Position numbers and translations under genes: made by a program
The notes under the pieces: model-generated
Database searches by the model: none
What the model saw: only the letters and a program-made list of their open reading frames with translations
Told to the model about the DNA's origin: nothing
Assembly (NCBI RefSeq): GCF_003144115.1
Contig: NW_020311999.1
Coordinates: forward strand, 80,239-144,238
Direction of reading: 5' to 3'
DNA length: 64,000 bases
From: Tilletiopsis washingtonensis
Lineage: Eukaryota; Basidiomycota; Exobasidiomycetes; Entylomatales
Shown: positions 1,926 through 34,643 of the stretch, in pieces
How the letters are laid out: each line of letters starts with the position of its first letter
Position numbering within the stretch: the first letter of the stretch is position 1

Positions 1926-4701
1926 TTACTTGTCGCCCTCGCCCTCCGCCTCGCCCTCGTCGGCGTGCGCCGCAAACACGGGCTTGGGCTGGTTCTTGGC
2001 CCACGCGGTGGTCCATTTAGGATCGGACGTCGCCTTGTCGGCGTACTTGAGCAGCGCCCTGTTGCGAGCAGGGAGAGAGCGTGACGGGAGGGGGGAGCAA
2101 GGGAGGAAGAGGCGTCAGCGAGAAAAGGTCAGCATGCAAGAGGAGAAGGAGAAGGACACGCACTCGCGAGGATCTTCGTCGCGCGTGTTGCCCTGAGGGG
2201 AGGGAATATGATCAGTGTCAAATGTGGAAGGGGTCCATCGAACAGCCGGCCCCACGCTCCCTCCGAGCTTCCCCCCCCCCCCTCCGCCCTTTTGTTTGTC
2301 ACTTGCGTGGGCTGACTCCTTCGGCTCCGCTTCCCCTCCTCCCGCCTCGCTTCTGTACGTCGCTTCGCGCGCGACCATCCACACCCTCGCTTCTCCTGCC
2401 ACGCGTCACCTCCTCACGCTCTCCTGCACTCACGCGGTAGATGTTCTGCACGACGTGCTGCGTCGCCGCCGCGCCAATGCGGCCGCCCTTGCCGGGCCCG
2501 CTCATCGGGCGTTCGGGCATGCGGCTGGCGTGCGGGTCGGCGCGCATCTTTTCCATGCGGCGCTTCTTTGCCGCCTGGCTCATGCCCATGCCTCTGTCCG
2601 CCGCATTCTCCGCGCCCGGCGTGATGACGGGCATCTCGCCAAAGCCCTCGAACGTCGGGCGCACCTTGGCGCGCTTCGCCACGGCCAGCAGCGCGCCGCG
2701 GCTCGACTTGTGCGCGTCGAAAAAGACGCACACGGAGCCGAGCGACGTCGAGGCGAAGAGCTGGTTGATCTTGGGCGCGTAGACGAGACGCACGACGGAC
2801 GTCGCCTCGCCGCCGCCGATGGGGATGCGCCGCAGCGGCGCCAGATCGTCGCGCGACAGCACCTCGATGGCGCCCGAGGAGAGCAGCGGCGGCGCCTCGC
2901 CGCGCTCGGCCGCCGCCTCGACGGCAGCGCGCTCCGTGGAACGCTCCGCAGACGTGCCAGTCAGCAGTGTCCGCTCGTCGAGACTGAAGATGAGGCTCGT
3001 CTGCGCGTACTCGTTGCGCAGGCCAGTGCGCACGGCGAGGGGCTTCTTGAAGCTGCGCGCGTCCCACAGCTTGACCGAGTCGTCGCCGCCGCGCGTCGCG
3101 ATGGTGCGGCCGTCGCGCGAAAAGGCAATCGCCGACGTCTCGGTGTTGCGTTCGTGCGCGCCCTCGATGCTGCTGCTGGGCCGCGCAAGACTGCTGCTCG
3201 TGCTCCACAGATGCAGCGCGCCGTCGAGACACGCGGCGCCCAGCGTGCGTCCGTCGTGAGACACGCCCATTGCCGTCACCTTGGTGCGCGTGCCTCGCTC
3301 CTTGCTGCGCACCACAATGACGCGCGCCTGCTTCTGCTTCTCTTCCGCGTGCCAGAAGCGCACCGAGCTGTCGGCGCTGGCGGTGAGAAACGTGTCGGGC
3401 TGCGTCGGGTGCCACGCGCAGGCCGTGAGTTCTGCCACGTGGCCGTTCGTGTTGTTCATGTCGCGGATGTACGGATCGCCCTTGCGGAACGTCGCCAGCT
3501 CGGCGCCGTCGCGGTCGAAGAGCTTGGCCTGCGCCGTGCCGCTGGCGACGAGCAGCTGCTCGCCCGAGGCGCTCCACGCCACGTCGTGCACCCAGTACGT
3601 GCCCGCCGGCTCAAACGACTTGAACGGCCGCAGAGACGCCGTCATGCCGCCAAAGTCCCACAGCTTGACGTCGTAGTCGAGGCTGCCCGTCGCGACGCGT
3701 GCGCCGGATGCGTCGACGGCGAGCGCAGAGACCGGCTGCCGCAAACAGGTCAGCCACAACGAGTCAGCCACGGTACAGAGCGGGGAGGGGAAGGAACGAA
3801 TCAGTACTGGCACGGCAGACCGAGGCTGCGAGAGATGGGCGGCATGCGCTGCGAGGCAACGTGTGCTGCGAGCTCGACGACGTGACGAGATCGACATGGC
3901 CATACACAGCCGGCACCGACGTGCTTCTCCACAGCCGCGCCCGACGTGCAGCCTCGCTGCCGGCGCCGAGCTGCTCCTTTCGCGGCTTGGCTTCAGCCGC
4001 ACCTGGCCCGCCTGTGCAGCCTGGCATGCCGTGCACGACGCACATGCGCAGCACACGCTCGGGCATCGCGCTCAGTCGGGATGCGATGCGATGCGCGACG
4101 CCCTGGCCAGAGCGCGGGCTCGCGTCCTCTGCCCCTTCGAGCTGCAGCACGCAGCATGCGATGCGCCAACACCCCTGCTGTCGGCTTGGAACCCATCGAA
4201 CGGGGGCAGCATGTTCCATGCCCACGCCATCGCCGCAGCCGCCGCTTCCCGCCGTCCACTCACCTTCGTGTGGTCCTTCAGCTCGACGCACTGCGCCACG
4301 GGCAGGCCGAGTTCATCATCGCCCTGCGGCTCCGGCCCCAGATCAACACTGCCATCGCTGTCGTCGTCGCTCGCGCCGCCCTGCTCGGCCGCACGTCGCT
4401 CGGCCTCGCGATTCGCCGCGCGCTCGGCGGGCGTGAGGCCGTCGTCCGACTCGTCGTCGTCGTCGTCGCTCGCGGCGGCAGGCCGTTTCTGCGGCCCGGA
4501 GGCGGGCCGCATGGGACCTCGGACCGCCGGTGCACTGCGCGCGGCGGCGGCGGTGGGCGAGTCCCAGGCGATGCCCTGCAGCGGTGCGGCGCTGCTGCTG
4601 CTGGACGCCTCGGGCGCCGCTCGTGGGGCAGCGCCCGGACGAGGCTTGGCGGCCTTGCCGAAGGACATGGGCATCATGGCGCGCAGTGCTTCTTCGTCCA
4701 T
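1926..4701 (-). CDS. WDR70: WD40-repeat protein of the WDR70 family
   Basis: Nuclear WD40 protein. WDR70 homologues are linked to Cul4-type ubiquitin ligases and chromatin at DNA breaks. Exons read 4701-4264, 3735-2434, 2192-2164 and 2058-1926, giving 633 residues against about 650 in animals. The first exon is acidic and ends in the family signature leading into the propeller (ELKDHTK, then VSALAVD and DYDVKLWDFGGM). The central exon carries the WD repeats. The tail has the family pieces ALLKYAD and NQPKPVF near the stop. The third exon is only 29 nt. A promoter-side CpG-poor island starts about 220 bp upstream of the ATG. WD geometry alone could fit other families, but these end signatures favour WDR70. 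Confidence 0.87.
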
Positions 4702-6044
4702 GGCGGGCAGAGCGAGAGGGTTGGTGGGCTGAAGGTGAAGATGTTGCGCTGCGCTGCGCCGAGGAACAGAGCGACGCGTGGTGTGGTGGGTGAAGGCGGA
4801 GCGTGGTGCCGAGAGGACAGGAGGAGGGCGCAGCAGTGGAGGTCGAGGCGGCACTTCTCTCGTGCGGCAGGCGCTGGCGGGGGCGGCGCGCGACTCCCGG
4901 CGCCTCACTTCCCCGCTGTCGCAGGGGCATCCCTGCCCCCTGTCCTCATCCTGCAGCCCCCTGCTTGGGCAGGCTGTCAGTGTGCTTCTGGGCAAGAGGA
5001 TGGGATGTTCCCTCTGCATTGCTTTGCTTGGCTGGGCTAGGCCTGCTGGGCAGGCACAGGCAGAGAGAAGGGCACACTGCAGCAGCAGCAGGTGAGTGTC
5101 AGAGGGAGACTGCATAGCTGCATGCTGACTTTTCCCTACAGGATGAGCAGCCTGGGGGGGACTGCTGAGCAGAGCAATCAGCAGGAGTAGCAGGTGAGAG
5201 CTGAGCATCTAGTGCCTTGGACCACAGCTGACTTGATCTCCTGCAGCCACCTACAAGCTCTGAGCTGGGCCACTTGTGCTCCAAGCAGAGCCAGCAGGTG
5301 AGCAAGTAGCCTGCTATGCAGCAGACTGTCACTGACCTGCCTTCTTCTGCAGTGAGCTGCAGCAGATACCCCTGTTCCTGTTCCCTCCCATGTCACTTCT
5401 CCTTGGCTGCAGCAATGGCACTTGTCTACCTGAGGGTACATGCAAGCCTTGGCCTCTGTTACTGGTGCTGCTGTAGAGAGCTGCACTGACCCAGAAGCAA
5501 GTGTGATGCTGCACAAAGCAGCAAGCATCATTCATTTGTCCTGCAAAGCATGCCCTTCTTGGCCAAGCTGTGGGCTGGGCAGCTGGGCACTTTGATGCAG
5601 CAGTGTGGTGCATACCAATGGGCATTTTGGCTGGCTGTACAGCCCAGAAGAGCAACTTGAAGCAATGCAATGGCGCTGTCAGCTGCACTGGCCTTGGCAA
5701 AGTCCTGCTTGACAGCTTGCATGCTGCAGTCATGCGCAGGTGCCAGCAACTGCAGGATGGCGGGCTCTGAGTGCTCCTCTGCAGCTACACTAGCAGTACT
5801 GTGCCCTGTTAGCAAGCTCTATGCCCAAATGGCTCTGTTTTCATGCCAGCATTCCTGCAGCAGAGCAGCACAGAGCACCAGATAGCAGTCAAAGAGTGCC
5901 AGGCCACCACACAGCTTCAGCAAGCTGTACAGGCTCTGCAGGGCTCACGGCAGGCTGTCTGACGCTCTGCGCATGTCAAAAGCAGTGCATAAGGGCCTGC
6001 AGCAAGCCCTGAGGCCTGCCAGGCTGCCTGAGGAGTGCAAAAAG
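4702..6044. other. WDR70 upstream region passing into CpG-poor sequence; no gene seen
   Basis: The first 220 bp have host composition and should hold the WDR70 promoter. From about 4925 CpG nearly vanishes and the sequence becomes rich in CAG, TGC and GCA words, with several CAGGTGAG junction-like strings. Short open frames exist on both strands, but none resembles a known protein or shows a convincing exon chain. Confidence 0.6.
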
Positions 6045-6090
6045 CAGAGGAGCAAAAAGAGAGCAAAAATGCCACAAAAGGCAAAAAGTA

Positions 6091-6188
6091 TGACCAGCAC
6101 GGGGCTCGAACCCGCAACCTTCAGATGTACAGAGCATTGAATGCTCGTAAATCGTAGTCTGCTGCGATGCCAATTTCGCCAACCGGCC
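6091..6188 (-). tRNA. tRNA-Arg(ACG) with a 25-nt intron, left copy
   Basis: The cloverleaf reads 5' to 3' on the minus strand. The acceptor is GGCCGGT pairing GCTGGTC (with G-U pairs), the D stem is GCGA/TCGC with an AATTGGCA loop, and the anticodon loop is CTACGAA interrupted after A37 by a 25-nt intron. The T stem-loop is GCGGG-TTCGAGC-CCCGT and the discriminator is A. Pair 27:43 is a G-A mismatch. It is transcribed outward, away from the element centre, and a T-run follows on the transcribed strand as a Pol III stop. Confidence 0.88.
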
Positions 6189-6442
6189 ATATTTGATGTT
6201 CGGCTGGAAAAAGGTTGCGTACACAAATCTGCTGCATTGATCATCAGAATTTGTGTGATAACTTGGTCCGTACAGGCAGTGGGGAGCTTCTGGTGAAAGA
6301 ATGGAAGGATTTGAGGCAGCACTGGCTGATCTCTGCAGATGTACCCTACCCCTTGACACTAGGCTGCTTGACTGATGCACACTGCATCTGTCTTTCACCT
6401 GCCAAAGTCTCAGCACAGCTTGTTAGAGCCACTGCTGTGATA

Positions 6443-6602
6443 CCTGCGCCTGGCCCAGACAGCAGGCCCCTCCTGTTGCTGCTGCCTGTCTGCAAGCCCT
6501 GCACAGCCCATGTGCCACCTGGACACCTGTAGCACCTGCAGCACATGCCTGGCAGCCAGGCAGCAGCAACAGGAGCAGCCTGCTGGCTGGGCCATGCGCA
6601 GG
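6443..6602. repeat. Near-palindrome nested in the left arm
   Basis: The stretch beginning CCTGCGCCTGGCCCAGA at 6443 is the imperfect reverse complement of the stretch ending GGGCCATGCGCAGG at 6602. The stems are roughly 55 bp around a centre near 6522. The single strand could fold into a long hairpin. It resembles a small foldback element lodged inside the arm. Confidence 0.75.
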
Positions 6603-6833
6603 CATGCAGCTGCAATGCATCATGGGTGGCACATGCACTCCCAGCACCTGGGCTCAAGCAGGCTCAGGGCAGAGCAATTGCAGGTCTGGCCCTCATGCTG
6701 GCTGCTTGACACAGTGTAGCAGATGCTGTCTAGCAGGTCTGTATTGAAGCTCAGTGTGAGACTCAAATGGCTAGTGAAGCTGCAGCACTGTTACTGCATT
6801 GCAAAGCTAGCTGGTGTGGACAGCAAAGGCCTT

Positions 6834-6976
6834 GATGCACTTTGCTGGCACTTCTGTTGAGCTGAAGAGCTGAATGATGCATGATACAGCATGGGCTAGA
6901 CTCAGTACAGCTGGATTTGTGCCAAGAAAAGGCACATGCGCGCTGTAGTTCTGCTGCAGGTGTATCTGCTGCAGCA
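6834..6976. repeat. Diverged subterminal repeat, left partner
   Basis: It aligns in inverted orientation with 9443-9575, sharing strings such as GTTGAGCTGAAGAGC, ACAGCATGGGCT and GCATGCGC-type words with many differences. About 115 bp of unshared sequence separates it from the end of the perfect arm on this side. Confidence 0.7.
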
Positions 6977-7158
6977 TGTACAGTTTTAGAAGTGCTCAAG
7001 CAGCTGGCAGGACCAGTGCAGATCTCCCTGGTGACTTGTGGAGACATGGCGCAGCTTGGCCAACCTGGTGCGCACAGGCTCAAACTGCCACACTGGGTTG
7101 CGCAAGGAGCAGTGCAGGCCAGCAATAGGGCAAAGAGCAAGAAGACGTGCGGCAATGA

Positions 7159-7929
7159 ATGAGTGTAAGCATGTTGTCAGCCACTTCTGAGCTAGGCAAT
7201 ATCATGCAGGCAAGTGCCTCAGCTGCAGCTGACAGTATGCGCTGCACTGCAGCAGATCTGGGCACTGGACCAAGCACACTTGCCTGCAACCAGGCCTACA
7301 TGGATGTCCTTCTGAACAAGAAGCCATTGTCCTACCTGCGCACAGAAGAACGCCAGCGCGTCCTTGCAGCCCTGCCTCCCAACATGATGGTCACACTGCC
7401 CTACAATGACATTGTGCACAGTGCAGGCAGCATGCTGCAGCTGTGCTACAATGAGGCCACCAAGGCTGCGCGTGTAGGGCGCAATGGCAGCAGTGTGCTT
7501 GACCATTTCATTCTGCATCTTGCCAACACAGGCTGCCTCAGGCAGCACTACAAGATCAATGTCACTGCCAGCCTCAATAGCCTGGCAGGCACACGGCATA
7601 TTCACCCTTCAGCCTTGAGGCTAGACAAGCCAGTTGCAGTATCCAGACAAGGACAGCAGGTAAGTAGCCAGCCTGTGGAGCTAAATACTGCAATGCACCT
7701 GATTATGCTTTGTTGCCAGACAGGCATGAATCCCTCAATGACAAAGAGCGCCTGCCAAACCCAAGAGCAAGCGTGTGGCGCAATGCTGCCAAACTCAGGG
7801 GCTCACAGCTGCTCTAGGCGCACAGCAGCAGCATGCGCTTGGTGCATATGCAGTCTGTTGAGCTGCTTCCTTTTCACTGCGCCTGCAACTGCCTCTTTGA
7901 GATCACTGGCAGGCTTCTCCCTATCCTAA
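7159..7929 (+). CDS. Unrecognised open frame inside the inverted-repeat element
   Basis: A 256-codon open frame that I do not recognise. Its first two thirds (residues about 1-170) are balanced in composition, with runs such as LSYLRTEERQRVLAALPPNM and LDHFILHLANTGCLRQHY, and look like real protein. The last third is Cys/Ser-rich and low in order, so a splice near a CAGGTAAGT at about 7660 may end the true exon. Codon use is CpG-poor, unlike the host genes. It points towards the opposite open frame at 8564-9529. It could be an element-encoded protein, but no catalytic motif is visible. Confidence 0.4.
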   Translation: MSVSMLSATSELGNIMQASASAAADSMRCTAADLGTGPSTLACNQAYMDVLLNKKPLSYLRTEERQRVLAALPPNMMVTLPYNDIVHSAGSMLQLCYNEATKAARVGRNGSSVLDHFILHLANTGCLRQHYKINVTASLNSLAGTRHIHPSALRLDKPVAVSRQGQQVSSQPVELNTAMHLIMLCCQTGMNPSMTKSACQTQEQACGAMLPNSGAHSCSRRTAAACAWCICSLLSCFLFTAPATASLRSLAGFSLS

Positions 7930-8563
7930 TCTTCAGGCGCCTGCTGGAGCTGGCTTTGACCTGAATTGCTGCTGCCCATGCTTACAGGCCATGCTCTCTA
8001 GAATGTGCGCGCAGCCCCAGAGCGCAATTCAAGGCAATTGGGCATCTCCAGCCCATGTTGGCTGCACTCCAAGCCCTCAGACAATCAATGGTGCTGGTTA
8101 AGCCTTAAAGGCTCAAGTGCAGTAGTCAAAGTTTGTAAACATGCAAGACCAAGCCCCTCTCACTCCAGAAGCGGCTTGGGGCGCACCAGTGCATGGCCTG
8201 CAAGCAGCACATCCCACATAGGGCCCTTCTTCATCTTTGTCAGTGTGCTTGTGCATAGGGCTGCAGCCTCAACAGCAGCAGCCTTGTTGTGGTGGGTTGG
8301 ACAGATGTTGGCAGCCACATGCTTGATGAGCTTTGTTCTGTGGTCAAACTTGTATGGAAGCTGTTTTGTCTACAACACCAAGGTCTGCCTGCAATTGACA
8401 AGCCCAGGCCGCTTGTGAGTGCCATCTTTCTTCTTCTTGTTTGCCACCTAGGCCATGAGCTTCCACTGCAGCGCGTAGAGAATGTACAGCAGCGCAAAGT
8501 TGCAGAGGCTTGCATTGGACCAGGCCATGATGGGCACTGCAAAGATGTCTGTCAGCAAGGAGC

Positions 8564-9529
8564 TCAGCCAGCATGCTTGAAGGCGCGCAAGGCATGGCTG
8601 TGCACTGCAGACCTACCAGATGTGAAGTAGAGAGAGCGCAAGGTAGGATGCAGTAACTCATGTATCAGGTGTGCTTGCTGCAAGGACAGAAGTGAGCGTG
8701 AGCAATGAGCAGGCAGGCAGCAGGCATATTGGCCTGCTGAGAGTGGCAGCACAGCTAGACGTACCAATGCCTTGGCAGGCCTCAAGCAGCAGGGCAAGGA
8801 TGTCACTGCTGAGCAGCAAAGGGTGCCTTGGCGGATTGCAAACAATGCAGCAATGCTCTTGCGCTGCACCTGGCAGGCGTGTGGTGATGACTGCACCTTG
8901 CTGCAGGCAGCTACAACAAGAGGTGCCTGATGCAGAAGCTGCGCCAGGCAGTGCGCAAGATGCATGAGCTGCGGGTCAATGAGGTAGAACTTGTTGAACT
9001 GGCGTCCAAACAAGCCGGCCTGGCATGGAGTTGAGGAACACTCCCTGCATGAGCTCTGTGGAGGGCACAGTGCAAGTGAGAGAGCAGTGTTTGGCCTGGA
9101 GGGCATACAAAACAGGCATGCAGAAGGGCGTGCAGAAGGGCAGGCAGGGCAGTGAGCACCTGGGCAATGCAACTTGCTCTGACAGGCCCGCTTGCTGCAA
9201 TGAACGGGCTGACAGATTAGATGCTGCAGCAGCGCAATGCACTTGTCACGGACAAAGCCGTTGATCTGGTCAAGACAGTTGTACAAGGCTTGTCTGCTGT
9301 GCTGGCCAGCTGTGGGTCTGTTGGCCAGGCCTGCAGTGCGCAAGGCATAGCACCCAGCAAAGCCCCACCAGGCATCTGCAGGGACAAGTACCATGCTGTT
9401 GGGCACAAAGTAAGGTGCCACTTCCTCCTTGTTGCCACCAGTGCAGCGCAGCAGGTACCCTTGCAGCAGGACTACAGTGTGCGCATGCCTTTCCTTGGCA
9501 TGCAGCTGACTGTCATAAGCCCAGCCCAT
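8564..9529 (-). CDS. Unrecognised open frame inside the inverted-repeat element, opposite strand
   Basis: A 321-codon open frame starting just inside the right arm. The N-terminal part (HAKERHAHTVVLLQGYLL, then NSMVLVPADAWWGFAGCYAL) reads like folded protein. The middle is Cys/Pro/Ser-rich and may include unspliced intron. A further coding-like stretch lies downstream on the same strand around 8450-8550. Its first coding block is the partner of the diverged repeat at 6834-6976, where the left copy looks decayed. A TATA box and a GTAAGT donor outside the right arm (10263-10369) point into this strand. Function unknown. Confidence 0.4.
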   Translation of the reverse strand: MGWAYDSQLHAKERHAHTVVLLQGYLLRCTGGNKEEVAPYFVPNSMVLVPADAWWGFAGCYALRTAGLANRPTAGQHSRQALYNCLDQINGFVRDKCIALLQHLICQPVHCSKRACQSKLHCPGAHCPACPSARPSACLFCMPSRPNTALSLALCPPQSSCRECSSTPCQAGLFGRQFNKFYLIDPQLMHLAHCLAQLLHQAPLVVAACSKVQSSPHACQVQRKSIAALFAIRQGTLCCSAVTSLPCCLRPAKALVRLAVLPLSAGQYACCLPAHCSRSLLSLQQAHLIHELLHPTLRSLYFTSGRSAVHSHALRAFKHAG

Positions 9530-9575
9530 GCTGTGTCATAGACATTTCTGCTCTTCAGCTCAAAAGAAGTGCATC
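9443..9575. repeat. Diverged subterminal repeat, right partner
   Basis: Inverted and diverged partner of 6834-6976. It overlaps the 5' part of the minus-strand open frame. The contrast with the adjoining perfect arm is abrupt at position 9628. Confidence 0.7.
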
Positions 9576-9694
9576 TAGAGCACCTTGTCAAGCAGCCAGG
9601 ATGGGGGCCCAGCCTTCAACGGCAGTTCCCTGAGCCTGCTTGAGCCCAGGTGCTGGGAGTGCATGTGCCACCCATGATGCATTGCAGCTGCATG

Positions 9695-9854
9695 CCTGCG
9701 CATGGCCCAGCCAGCAGGCTGCTCCTGTTGCTGCTGCCTGGCTGCCAGGCATGTGCTGCAGGTGCTACAGGTGTCCAGGTGGCACATGGGCTGTGCAGGG
9801 CTTGCAGACAGGCAGCAGCAACAGGAGGGGCCTGCTGTCTGGGCCAGGCGCAGG
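9695..9854. repeat. Near-palindrome nested in the right arm
   Basis: Same foldback as at 6443-6602, carried in the other arm. It is centred near 9775 with stems of about 55 bp. Confidence 0.75.
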
Positions 9855-10108
9855 TATCACAGCAGTGGCTCTAACAAGCTGTGCTGAGACTTTGGCAGGT
9901 GAAAGACAGATGCAGTGTGCATCAGTCAAGCAGCCTAGTGTCAAGGGGTAGGGTACATCTGCAGAGATCAGCCAGTGCTGCCTCAAATCCTTCCATTCTT
10001 TCACCAGAAGCTCCCCACTGCCTGTACGGACCAAGTTATCACACAAATTCTGATGATCAATGCAGCAGATTTGTGTACGCAACCTTTTTCCAGCCGAACA
10101 TCAAATAT

Positions 10109-10206
10109 GGCCGGTTGGCGAAATTGGCATCGCAGCAGACTACGATTTACGAGCATTCAATGCTCTGTACATCTGAAGGTTGCGGGTTCGAGCCCCGTGC
10201 TGGTCA
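10109..10206 (+). tRNA. tRNA-Arg(ACG) with a 25-nt intron, right copy
   Basis: Identical to the copy at 6091-6188 but on the plus strand, so it is also transcribed outward. The intron lies after position 37 of the ACG anticodon loop. A T5 Pol III terminator follows at 10210-10214. With both copies intact there is no sign that either is a pseudogene. Confidence 0.88.
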
Positions 10207-10252
10207 TACTTTTTGCCTTTTGTGGCATTTTTGCTCTCTTTTTGCTCCTCTG

Positions 10253-10882
10253 AGGAGGGACAACTTACTTGGTGGGTTGGGATGAGGAGTAGAGGGAGGC
10301 TTGAGCTTGAGGATGCTTGAGGTGGTGGGGGGAGGAGAAGAGTGGCAGGCTGGGGGCCCCGCCTTTATAGGGAAGAGGCAGCAGCCAGGGTCCAGGGTGA
10401 GTGTGCAGCAGCTGCCTCCACCTGACTCCGCAGGCAGATGAGCAGAGGCTGAGCAGCCAACCACAGGCCAGCACAGGCAGGCAGGCAGCAGGAAGGGTCC
10501 AGCTGCAGAGCAAGAATGGGTCACAGATGTGGGGCCAGGCTGAGTCATGGCCTCCACATGCTGACATCATACAGGCAGCACACAGGCGGAGTGCCTGCAG
10601 CAAGCAGAGGGCAGCAGGGGGCAGGGAAACCGAGCCAGAGAGGTCCCAGGAGCATTTGGCTGCAGGGAGTCTCGCGCGGCCCCGCGACGCGCCGCCCGCG
10701 CCAGAGCCGCGGGATCGCGGCGCGCGAGATTCACGTGCGTGCGGGGGTGGAGGCGCGCGGCCAGCGACACAGGCGGCGTGCCTCGCTCGGCGCTGGCCGC
10801 CAGCGCTGACCCGCTGCGCCTTGCGTTGCTCTTGCACCACCATCCCGATCCCCGCATCGCCCAGCACCACACATCCCGCACC
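10253..10882. other. CpG-poor flank of the element, then SCP2 promoter
   Basis: 10253-10670 is CpG-poor and has no coding-like frame. Its minus strand carries a promoter-like arrangement described separately. From 10670 the host GC-rich composition returns and should contain the promoter and 5' leader of the SCP2 gene. Confidence 0.6.
10263..10369 (-). promoter_or_regulatory. TATA box and first-intron donor reading into the right arm
   Basis: On the minus strand TATAAA lies at 10369-10364. About 95 bp downstream a CAAGTAAGT junction puts a GTAAGT donor at 10268-10263. GTAAGT is not the donor style of the host genes here (GTGAGT or GTGCGT). A transcript would pass through the right arm, antisense to the tRNA, towards the open frame at 9529-8564. 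This is inference from two motifs and their spacing. Confidence 0.35.
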
Positions 10883-34548: not shown

Positions 34549-34643
34549 GGCTGGATGGCGCAGCGGCAGCGCGCATGCTTAACAGAATACGGCAGTTCGC
34601 CAATTCACGCATAAGGTCGTCGGTTCGATCCCGGCTCTAGTCA
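34549..34643 (+). tRNA. tRNA-Val(AAC) with a 23-nt intron
   Basis: The acceptor is GGCTGGA pairing TCTAGTC, the D stem is GCGC/GCGC, and the anticodon loop is TTAACAC with a 23-nt intron after A37. The variable loop is AGGTC, the T stem-loop is GTCGG-TTCGATC-CCGGC and the discriminator is A. A T5 Pol III stop follows at 34647-34651. As in the tRNA-Arg genes, pair 27:43 is a mismatch with A43. Confidence 0.85.

Follow-up and report, generated by a model that had tools for sequence, protein, structure and literature searches.

Why should two copies of one tRNA gene face outward from the ends of a long and perfect inverted repeat in a compact, GC-rich fungal genome? This question is raised by positions 6,045 to 10,252 of a 64,000-nucleotide stretch of the basidiomycete Tilletiopsis washingtonensis (RefSeq assembly GCF_003144115.1, contig NW_020311999.1, positions 80,239 to 144,238), hereafter the window, which comes from a genome of 18.7 Mb in 32 contigs with a GC content of ~68%. 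Based on the analyses described below, we think that the locus is probably an inverted duplication of a tRNA-Arg(ACG) gene whose tRNA-bearing ends were homogenised by gene conversion, and that it lies inside an island of DNA probably decayed through methylation.

Perfect arms beside diverged inner homology

The first-pass annotation described two arms of equal length that matched wherever compared, and the two arms indeed proved identical at all 625 positions, a match whose length excludes chance as its source. This identity stops abruptly at the outer ends, falling to 19 of 100 bases immediately outside the arms, where the flanks are unrelated. In line with the same annotation, each arm carries an outward-facing, intron-bearing tRNA-Arg(ACG) gene with an RNA polymerase III (Pol III) stop: Rfam placed one tRNA over its cut-off in each arm, with equal scores (Table 1); ARAGORN, which reported no tRNA in the window with introns disallowed, called both genes as tRNA-Arg(ACG) with introns allowed; and a Pol III-type T-stretch, CTTTTTGC, starts at the third base past each tRNA. 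When the tRNA was used as a query against the genome, the only two matches were these two copies; copy counts from this genome search are, here and below, lower bounds.

The homology between the two halves of the locus extends beyond the identical arms. Inward of these, and in register with them, we found a block of 57 bases with 17 differences followed by one of 125 bases with 30 differences (70-76% identity). Combined, the two blocks, which have two right-side bases in common (9571-9572), show 47 differences in 182 aligned bases (135/182 identical, ~26% divergence). The 625-bp repeat stands as an identical stretch, whereas its annotated end at 6669 does not, since diverged homology runs further inward. 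At the inner rate of divergence, the probability of finding zero differences in 625 bases is near 10^-81. The contrast between 625 of 625 identical positions and 47 differences in 182 implies that the common history of the arms is younger than that of the inner parts, and that one age combined with one rate does not describe both.

An identical tract beside in-register diverged homology is a feature of inverted gene duplication with conversion, and it is present here. In gene-converted duplicate pairs and in the arms of palindromes, a conversion tract is likewise marked by outer arms that match perfectly next to inner homology that has diverged, although the locus differs from such systems in being small and in having a tRNA gene as its sole conserved cargo. 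The simplest account would be an older inverted duplication, the tRNA end of which was later homogenised by gene conversion. According to this account, a tRNA-Arg(ACG) gene and some 0.7-0.8 kb of the DNA upstream of it would have been duplicated head-to-head in inverted orientation, generating an ancestral repeat longer than the present perfect arms; the inner parts would since have diverged by about a quarter, and the outer 625 bases with the tRNA would recently have been made identical by conversion between the arms. The perfect arms and the in-register diverged homology also lend support to an earlier suggestion that the structure was built around a duplicated tRNA gene.

The absence of any difference in 625 bases would equally be expected had a new inverted copy recently been superimposed on an older one, and other divergent tRNA pairs, at 2.4% and 6% difference, exist in this genome. 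A fresh, independent duplication would, however, match the register of the inner blocks only by chance, and we regard such an event as distinctly unlikely. A more trivial explanation, and one that would count against a biological origin of the repeat, is that the assembler copied or collapsed one arm: the identical arms exceed the length of short reads, and apparent runs of N, perhaps assembly gaps, occur elsewhere in the genome (GC near 0 in locus L022 and in part of L023, and a break in the self-alignment of contig C15). Nevertheless, the inner flanks of the arms are related yet distinct and in register, the outer flanks are entirely different, the window is without N, and comparable pairs elsewhere are 2-6% diverged, which together make an artefact very doubtful.

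It had also been proposed that the locus is mobile, and that an element ending in long inverted repeats may be shielded by the tRNA. Perfect inverted arms do flank an inner segment of 3 kb that contains an open frame, as would be the case for a transposon whose terminal inverted repeats, 625 bp long, carried a tRNA gene. However, searches of the T. washingtonensis genome revealed no further copy of the arm, the island or the inner frame. Furthermore, there is no target-site duplication, with only a 2-base AG match outside 6045 and 10252, and seven unspliced open reading frames (ORFs) of the island, chosen like those in the other Pfam scans as mainly the longest ones, gave no match over cut-off and no transposase domain. 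The homology that continues inward past the arms and the CpG-poor DNA that extends beyond them on both sides (see below) also argue against terminal repeats. As a transposon, the locus fails every feature that could be tested, and we consider this explanation highly improbable. The annotation's view that the layout is undescribed holds for transposons and does not hold in general, since inverted repeats at fission-yeast centromeres carry tRNA genes (PMC2040200).

A sharply bounded CpG-poor island

The entire inverted repeat is enclosed by an island with a GC content of 0.55, compared with ~0.68 in the remainder of the window, and a pronounced depletion of CpG. Its edges are sharp: consecutive 100-base intervals contain 14, 3 and 0 CpGs across 4801-5100, and 1, 11 and 20 across 10501-10800. 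Within the island, the ratio of observed to expected CpG (CpG o/e) is 0.07 at 5001-6044, 0.28 in the arms, 0.25 at 6670-9627 and 0.10 at 10253-10600, as compared with 1.12-1.20 outside it, while the corresponding TpG ratio is 1.47-1.96 in the island vs 1.17-1.28 outside. None of 120 random 500-base bins and none of the 117 window bins outside the island had a CpG o/e below 0.6. The random bins derive from 20 loci (the first 20 drawn, minus two that overlapped the window, plus two from a second list; 40 drawn), with positions coming from 18 of the 32 contigs. Within the arms, CpG o/e is 1.09 for the tRNA and 0.13 for the arm without it, and eight of the 13 CpGs in each arm lie inside the tRNA, with three more no farther than 85 bases from the tRNA 5' end. 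On each side the CpG-poor DNA continues past the tRNA and the arm, for 1.1 kb at the left and about 0.4 kb at the right, so that the arms do not mark the ends of an element.

CpG depletion accompanied by an excess of TpG, as expected for a methylation-decayed island, is thus present at this locus. The 125-base inner block, in addition, contains three TG/CA mismatches, the signature that CpG loss on opposite strands leaves, where 0.4 were expected (p 0.007). The genome encodes a DNMT1-like protein, whose best solved relatives are DNMT1, and a DNMT5-like protein, whose sole solved relative is 7r76 (E 3e-74), labelled Rad8, which we take to be Cryptococcus Dnmt5. According to a review (PMC7862722), CG methylation in Basidiomycota is linked to DNMT1 together with DNMT5, and methylation in fungi to transposable elements. 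Because of this link and of the presence of DNMT1-like and DNMT5-like genes, CpG methylation followed by deamination would be the natural cause of the depletion, and the island is most likely formerly CpG-methylated DNA whose CpGs were lost by deamination, with selection perhaps having preserved the CpGs of the tRNA bodies.

Seen in this way, the repeat itself is explainable, and it is the setting that is not routine: a near-total loss of CpG in patches that abut the 5' sides of tRNA genes while a tRNA-sized footprint is spared, in a compact GC-rich genome. Were methylation to be confirmed, this setting would constitute a natural assay of the limits of methylation, of whether these are set by Pol III genes, and of whether duplicated tRNA arms mend one another.

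CpG-poor DNA beside tRNA genes across the genome

We then examined the CpG o/e of 140-base windows on either side of the tRNA genes found in the genome, using a cut of 0.5. The set comprised 44 tRNAs, a lower bound drawn from 63 scored of 120 candidates; the upstream DNA of one (L022) was unreadable, leaving 43 for the upstream count. CpG-poor DNA was found upstream of 16 of the 43 tRNAs and downstream of five of the 44, with a background of 3 in 420 random windows, taken from the 20 random loci. Eleven tRNAs were CpG-poor upstream only, none downstream only, and five on both sides; the upstream-only to downstream-only ratio was 7:2 at a cut of 0.3, 10:2 at 0.4 and 12:0 at 0.6. Since the two arms have identical upstream 140 bases, we also dropped one copy of each inverted pair, which at the 0.5 cut left 10 upstream-only vs 0 downstream-only. 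Low GC alone does not explain the depletion, because only 1 of 52 random windows with a GC content below 0.62 had a CpG o/e under 0.5. In the CpG-poor class, the depletion nearly reaches the 5' end of the tRNA (CpG o/e 0.51 over the nearest 20 bases and 0.14-0.26 at distances above 60). Not every tRNA has an island, and an intron-bearing tRNA elsewhere in the window, at 34549-34643 (+), is CpG-poor on neither side.

Two further outward-facing tRNA pairs came to light. A tRNA-Ser(GCT) pair (C6:841288-854830; L051, L052) shares a 250-bp inverted repeat with 244 identical positions (97.6%) and, at a distance of 13 kb, sits near both ends of a stretch with a mean CpG o/e of 0.42. Its right copy has lost the T-stretch terminator and has TG near the tRNA 3' end where the left copy has CG; it appears to be in the process of being lost. 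A tRNA-Gly(GCC) pair (C7:755960-756484; L019, L020), 339 bases apart, is identical at 140 of 149 positions (94%), the match taking in a common TATA-like upstream stretch. The three pairs, counting the tRNA-Arg pair, have every one of their six genes in the class with CpG-poor upstream DNA (6 of 16 vs 0 of the 28 others, L022 among the 28; p 0.03 when the pairs are counted as three events, not six). Another outward group, on C15, had only a 52-base match between its ends and was not accepted as a further case.

The closest known layout would appear to be that of fission-yeast centromeres, whose inverted repeats (imr/otr) contain tRNA genes and lie on either side of a core, close to silent chromatin (PMC2040200); the homogenization of repeats and the retention of tRNA genes as boundaries have been discussed for centromeres (PMC6538654). 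By analogy, the tRNA pair described here might be kept as putative Pol III barriers against the spread of heterochromatin from the island. Centromeric tRNA genes of fission yeast act as barriers and are located in inverted repeats (PMC2040200), and 11 of 43 T. washingtonensis tRNAs are CpG-poor upstream but not downstream, as gauged by a 140-base sequence proxy. However, the CpG-poor DNA of this locus extends beyond both tRNAs. Moreover, one of the 11 (L031) is CpG-poor again more than 150 bases downstream, being CpG-poor on both sides farther out. We regard a barrier function of this pair as unlikely, although tRNA genes of this genome may in general act as barriers. In contrast to the fission-yeast repeats, the arm here measures 625 bp and has a single tRNA, and tRNA genes with adjoining CpG-poor DNA occur on many contigs, so that the locus is unlikely to be a centromere.

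What, then, might the islands be made of? Ty1-Ty4, Tj1, Tca8, DGLT-A and TRE5 insert upstream of tRNA genes (PMC5911963, section 11), and the CpG-poor DNA of T. washingtonensis starts no more than a few tens of bases upstream of tRNAs, the position chosen by these elements and by Tyl (PMC5911963, PMC5006619). Islands that lie mainly upstream of tRNA genes are as expected if Pol III-seeking retroelements had landed there and then decayed. The difference is that no element is recognised directly upstream of the tRNAs here, save for one weak reverse-transcriptase match. It seems reasonable to suggest that the islands may be retroelement graveyards, a source that we favour at perhaps even odds. 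Table 1 of PMC5911963 lists ascomycete yeasts and dictyostelids, and no basidiomycete, as hosts of tRNA-seeking elements; if methylation data bear out the present reading, a basidiomycete would join the lineages whose mobile DNA settles beside tRNA genes. A literature search, judged by titles and abstract openings, returned no description of this layout or of tRNA-linked CpG-poor islands in basidiomycetes. More broadly, and only tentatively, tRNA genes may anchor methylated, decaying upstream islands left over from Pol III-seeking retroelements, with tRNA genes in these islands repeatedly duplicated as inverted, outward-facing copies and rescued by conversion, which here would protect the only tRNA-Arg(ACG) gene found from its mutagenic surroundings.

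Several results weigh against decay by methylation, or against retroelements as its substrate. TG/CA mismatches, which CpG decay should leave, are absent from the 57-base inner block. With stricter cuts, the bias towards the upstream side becomes weaker (p 0.18 at 0.3, p 0.04 at 0.4), and tRNAs L030 and L034 are CpG-poor on the downstream side farther out. CpG-poor DNA is absent upstream of the single 5S gene and the single U6 gene that came from scoring 47 of 681 and 47 of 743 candidates, respectively. Located 400 bases upstream of tRNA L011, the reverse-transcriptase match does not reach the family cut-off, and its bin has a near-normal CpG o/e (0.87). When 33 ORFs from CpG-poor stretches or from the flanks of tRNAs were scanned, 30 had no Pfam domain over cut-off, the remaining three being two chromovirus frames and the sub-threshold reverse transcriptase, and 17 stretches compared with one another showed no mutual protein-level similarity except where loci overlapped, between two Copia loci, and between the related L011 and L012. 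The chromovirus lies downstream, not upstream, of tRNA L030, and neither of the two Copia copies with long frames is CpG-depleted or close to a tRNA found here.

Recognisable elements are few; those in favour of a retroelement source are the weak reverse-transcriptase match and the chromovirus-type element (C7:513473-516766; L056). The latter encodes gag, an integrase, a Tf2-like SH3 domain and a chromodomain, and occupies CpG-poor DNA (bins of 0.31-0.89); its integrase frame lies downstream of L030, a tRNA called as Leu, and ends at a distance of about 1 kb from it. The two Copia elements (C18:434162-436129 and C22:1586-3553) have long stop-free frames of 1241 and 1837 amino acids and are 94% alike at the protein level over 1100 residues.

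Reading frames and other features of the locus

The coordinates of all features are collected in Table 1.

Table 1. Features of the tRNA-Arg(ACG) inverted repeat and its island, in window coordinates
Feature	Coordinates	Strand	Basis
CpG-depleted low-GC island enclosing the whole inverted repeat (edges approximate)	4940-10640		CpG counts, CpG o/e
Perfect inverted repeat, left arm	6045-6669	-	625/625 vs reverse complement of 9628-10252
Perfect inverted repeat, right arm	9628-10252	+	625/625 vs reverse complement of 6045-6669
Left tRNA-Arg(ACG), 17-base intron, outward	6091-6188	-	Rfam RF00005, 38.1 bits; ARAGORN acg
Right tRNA-Arg(ACG), 17-base intron, outward, same sequence as left	10109-10206	+	Rfam RF00005, 38.1 bits; ARAGORN acg
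Pol III-type T-stretches, 3' of right tRNA to arm end	10209-10252	+	Sequence; mirrored at 6045-6088
Local hairpin, left arm	6440-6605		62-base stems, 85% complementary, 42-base loop
Identical local hairpin, right arm	9692-9857		62-base stems, 85% complementary, 42-base loop
Diverged continuation of left arm	6670-6726		17/57 differ from reverse complement of 9571-9627
Diverged continuation of right arm	9571-9627		17/57 differ from reverse complement of 6670-6726
121 bases on left side only, separating the two diverged blocks	6727-6847		Alignment
Further diverged inverted homology, left	6848-6972		76% to reverse complement of 9448-9572
Further diverged inverted homology, right	9448-9572		76% to reverse complement of 6848-6972
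256-residue open frame in inner segment	7159-7929	+	Without known domain; single copy in genome search

With respect to the T-stretches, the motif TTTTTGC occurs within 60 bases 3' of 39 of the 44 tRNAs, often repeated, and looks like a common style of Pol III terminator with back-up stops. MicroRNA-like Rfam matches in the arms were rejected as far under cut-off (best score 41 vs a gathering threshold of 84); they arise because of the 166-bp local hairpin.

Two relatives of the 256-residue frame were found, both with JGI as their source. One differs by a single residue as far as seen, and the second (P0002) is 87% identical over 131 residues and diverges after residue 131. A possible 5' splice site lies near 7660, within the frame, and two of the P0002 differences, Arg to Cys and Arg to His, are such as CpG loss could produce. 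The two relatives indicate that the inner DNA is present in other sequence sets, but give no sign of mobility. Among viral contigs there was no exact match to the tRNA pattern and no confirmed relative of the inner frame, and structure prediction for an inner frame of 167 residues was uninformative (pLDDT 41).

Finally, the gene flanking the island on the left (2299-4071, -) encodes a WD40 protein. Among the best 120 of 351 protein matches, its closest named relative is from Exobasidium rhododendri (62%), under which rank other exobasidiomycetes and other basidiomycetes, the Tilletiaria anomala counterpart being 55% identical. These matches led us to reject an algal origin, which the GC content and the abundance of introns in the tRNAs had at first suggested. 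A record under the plant name Adiantum nelumboides (62%) among these fungal matches was taken as contamination, and one match of 99% has JGI as its sole source.

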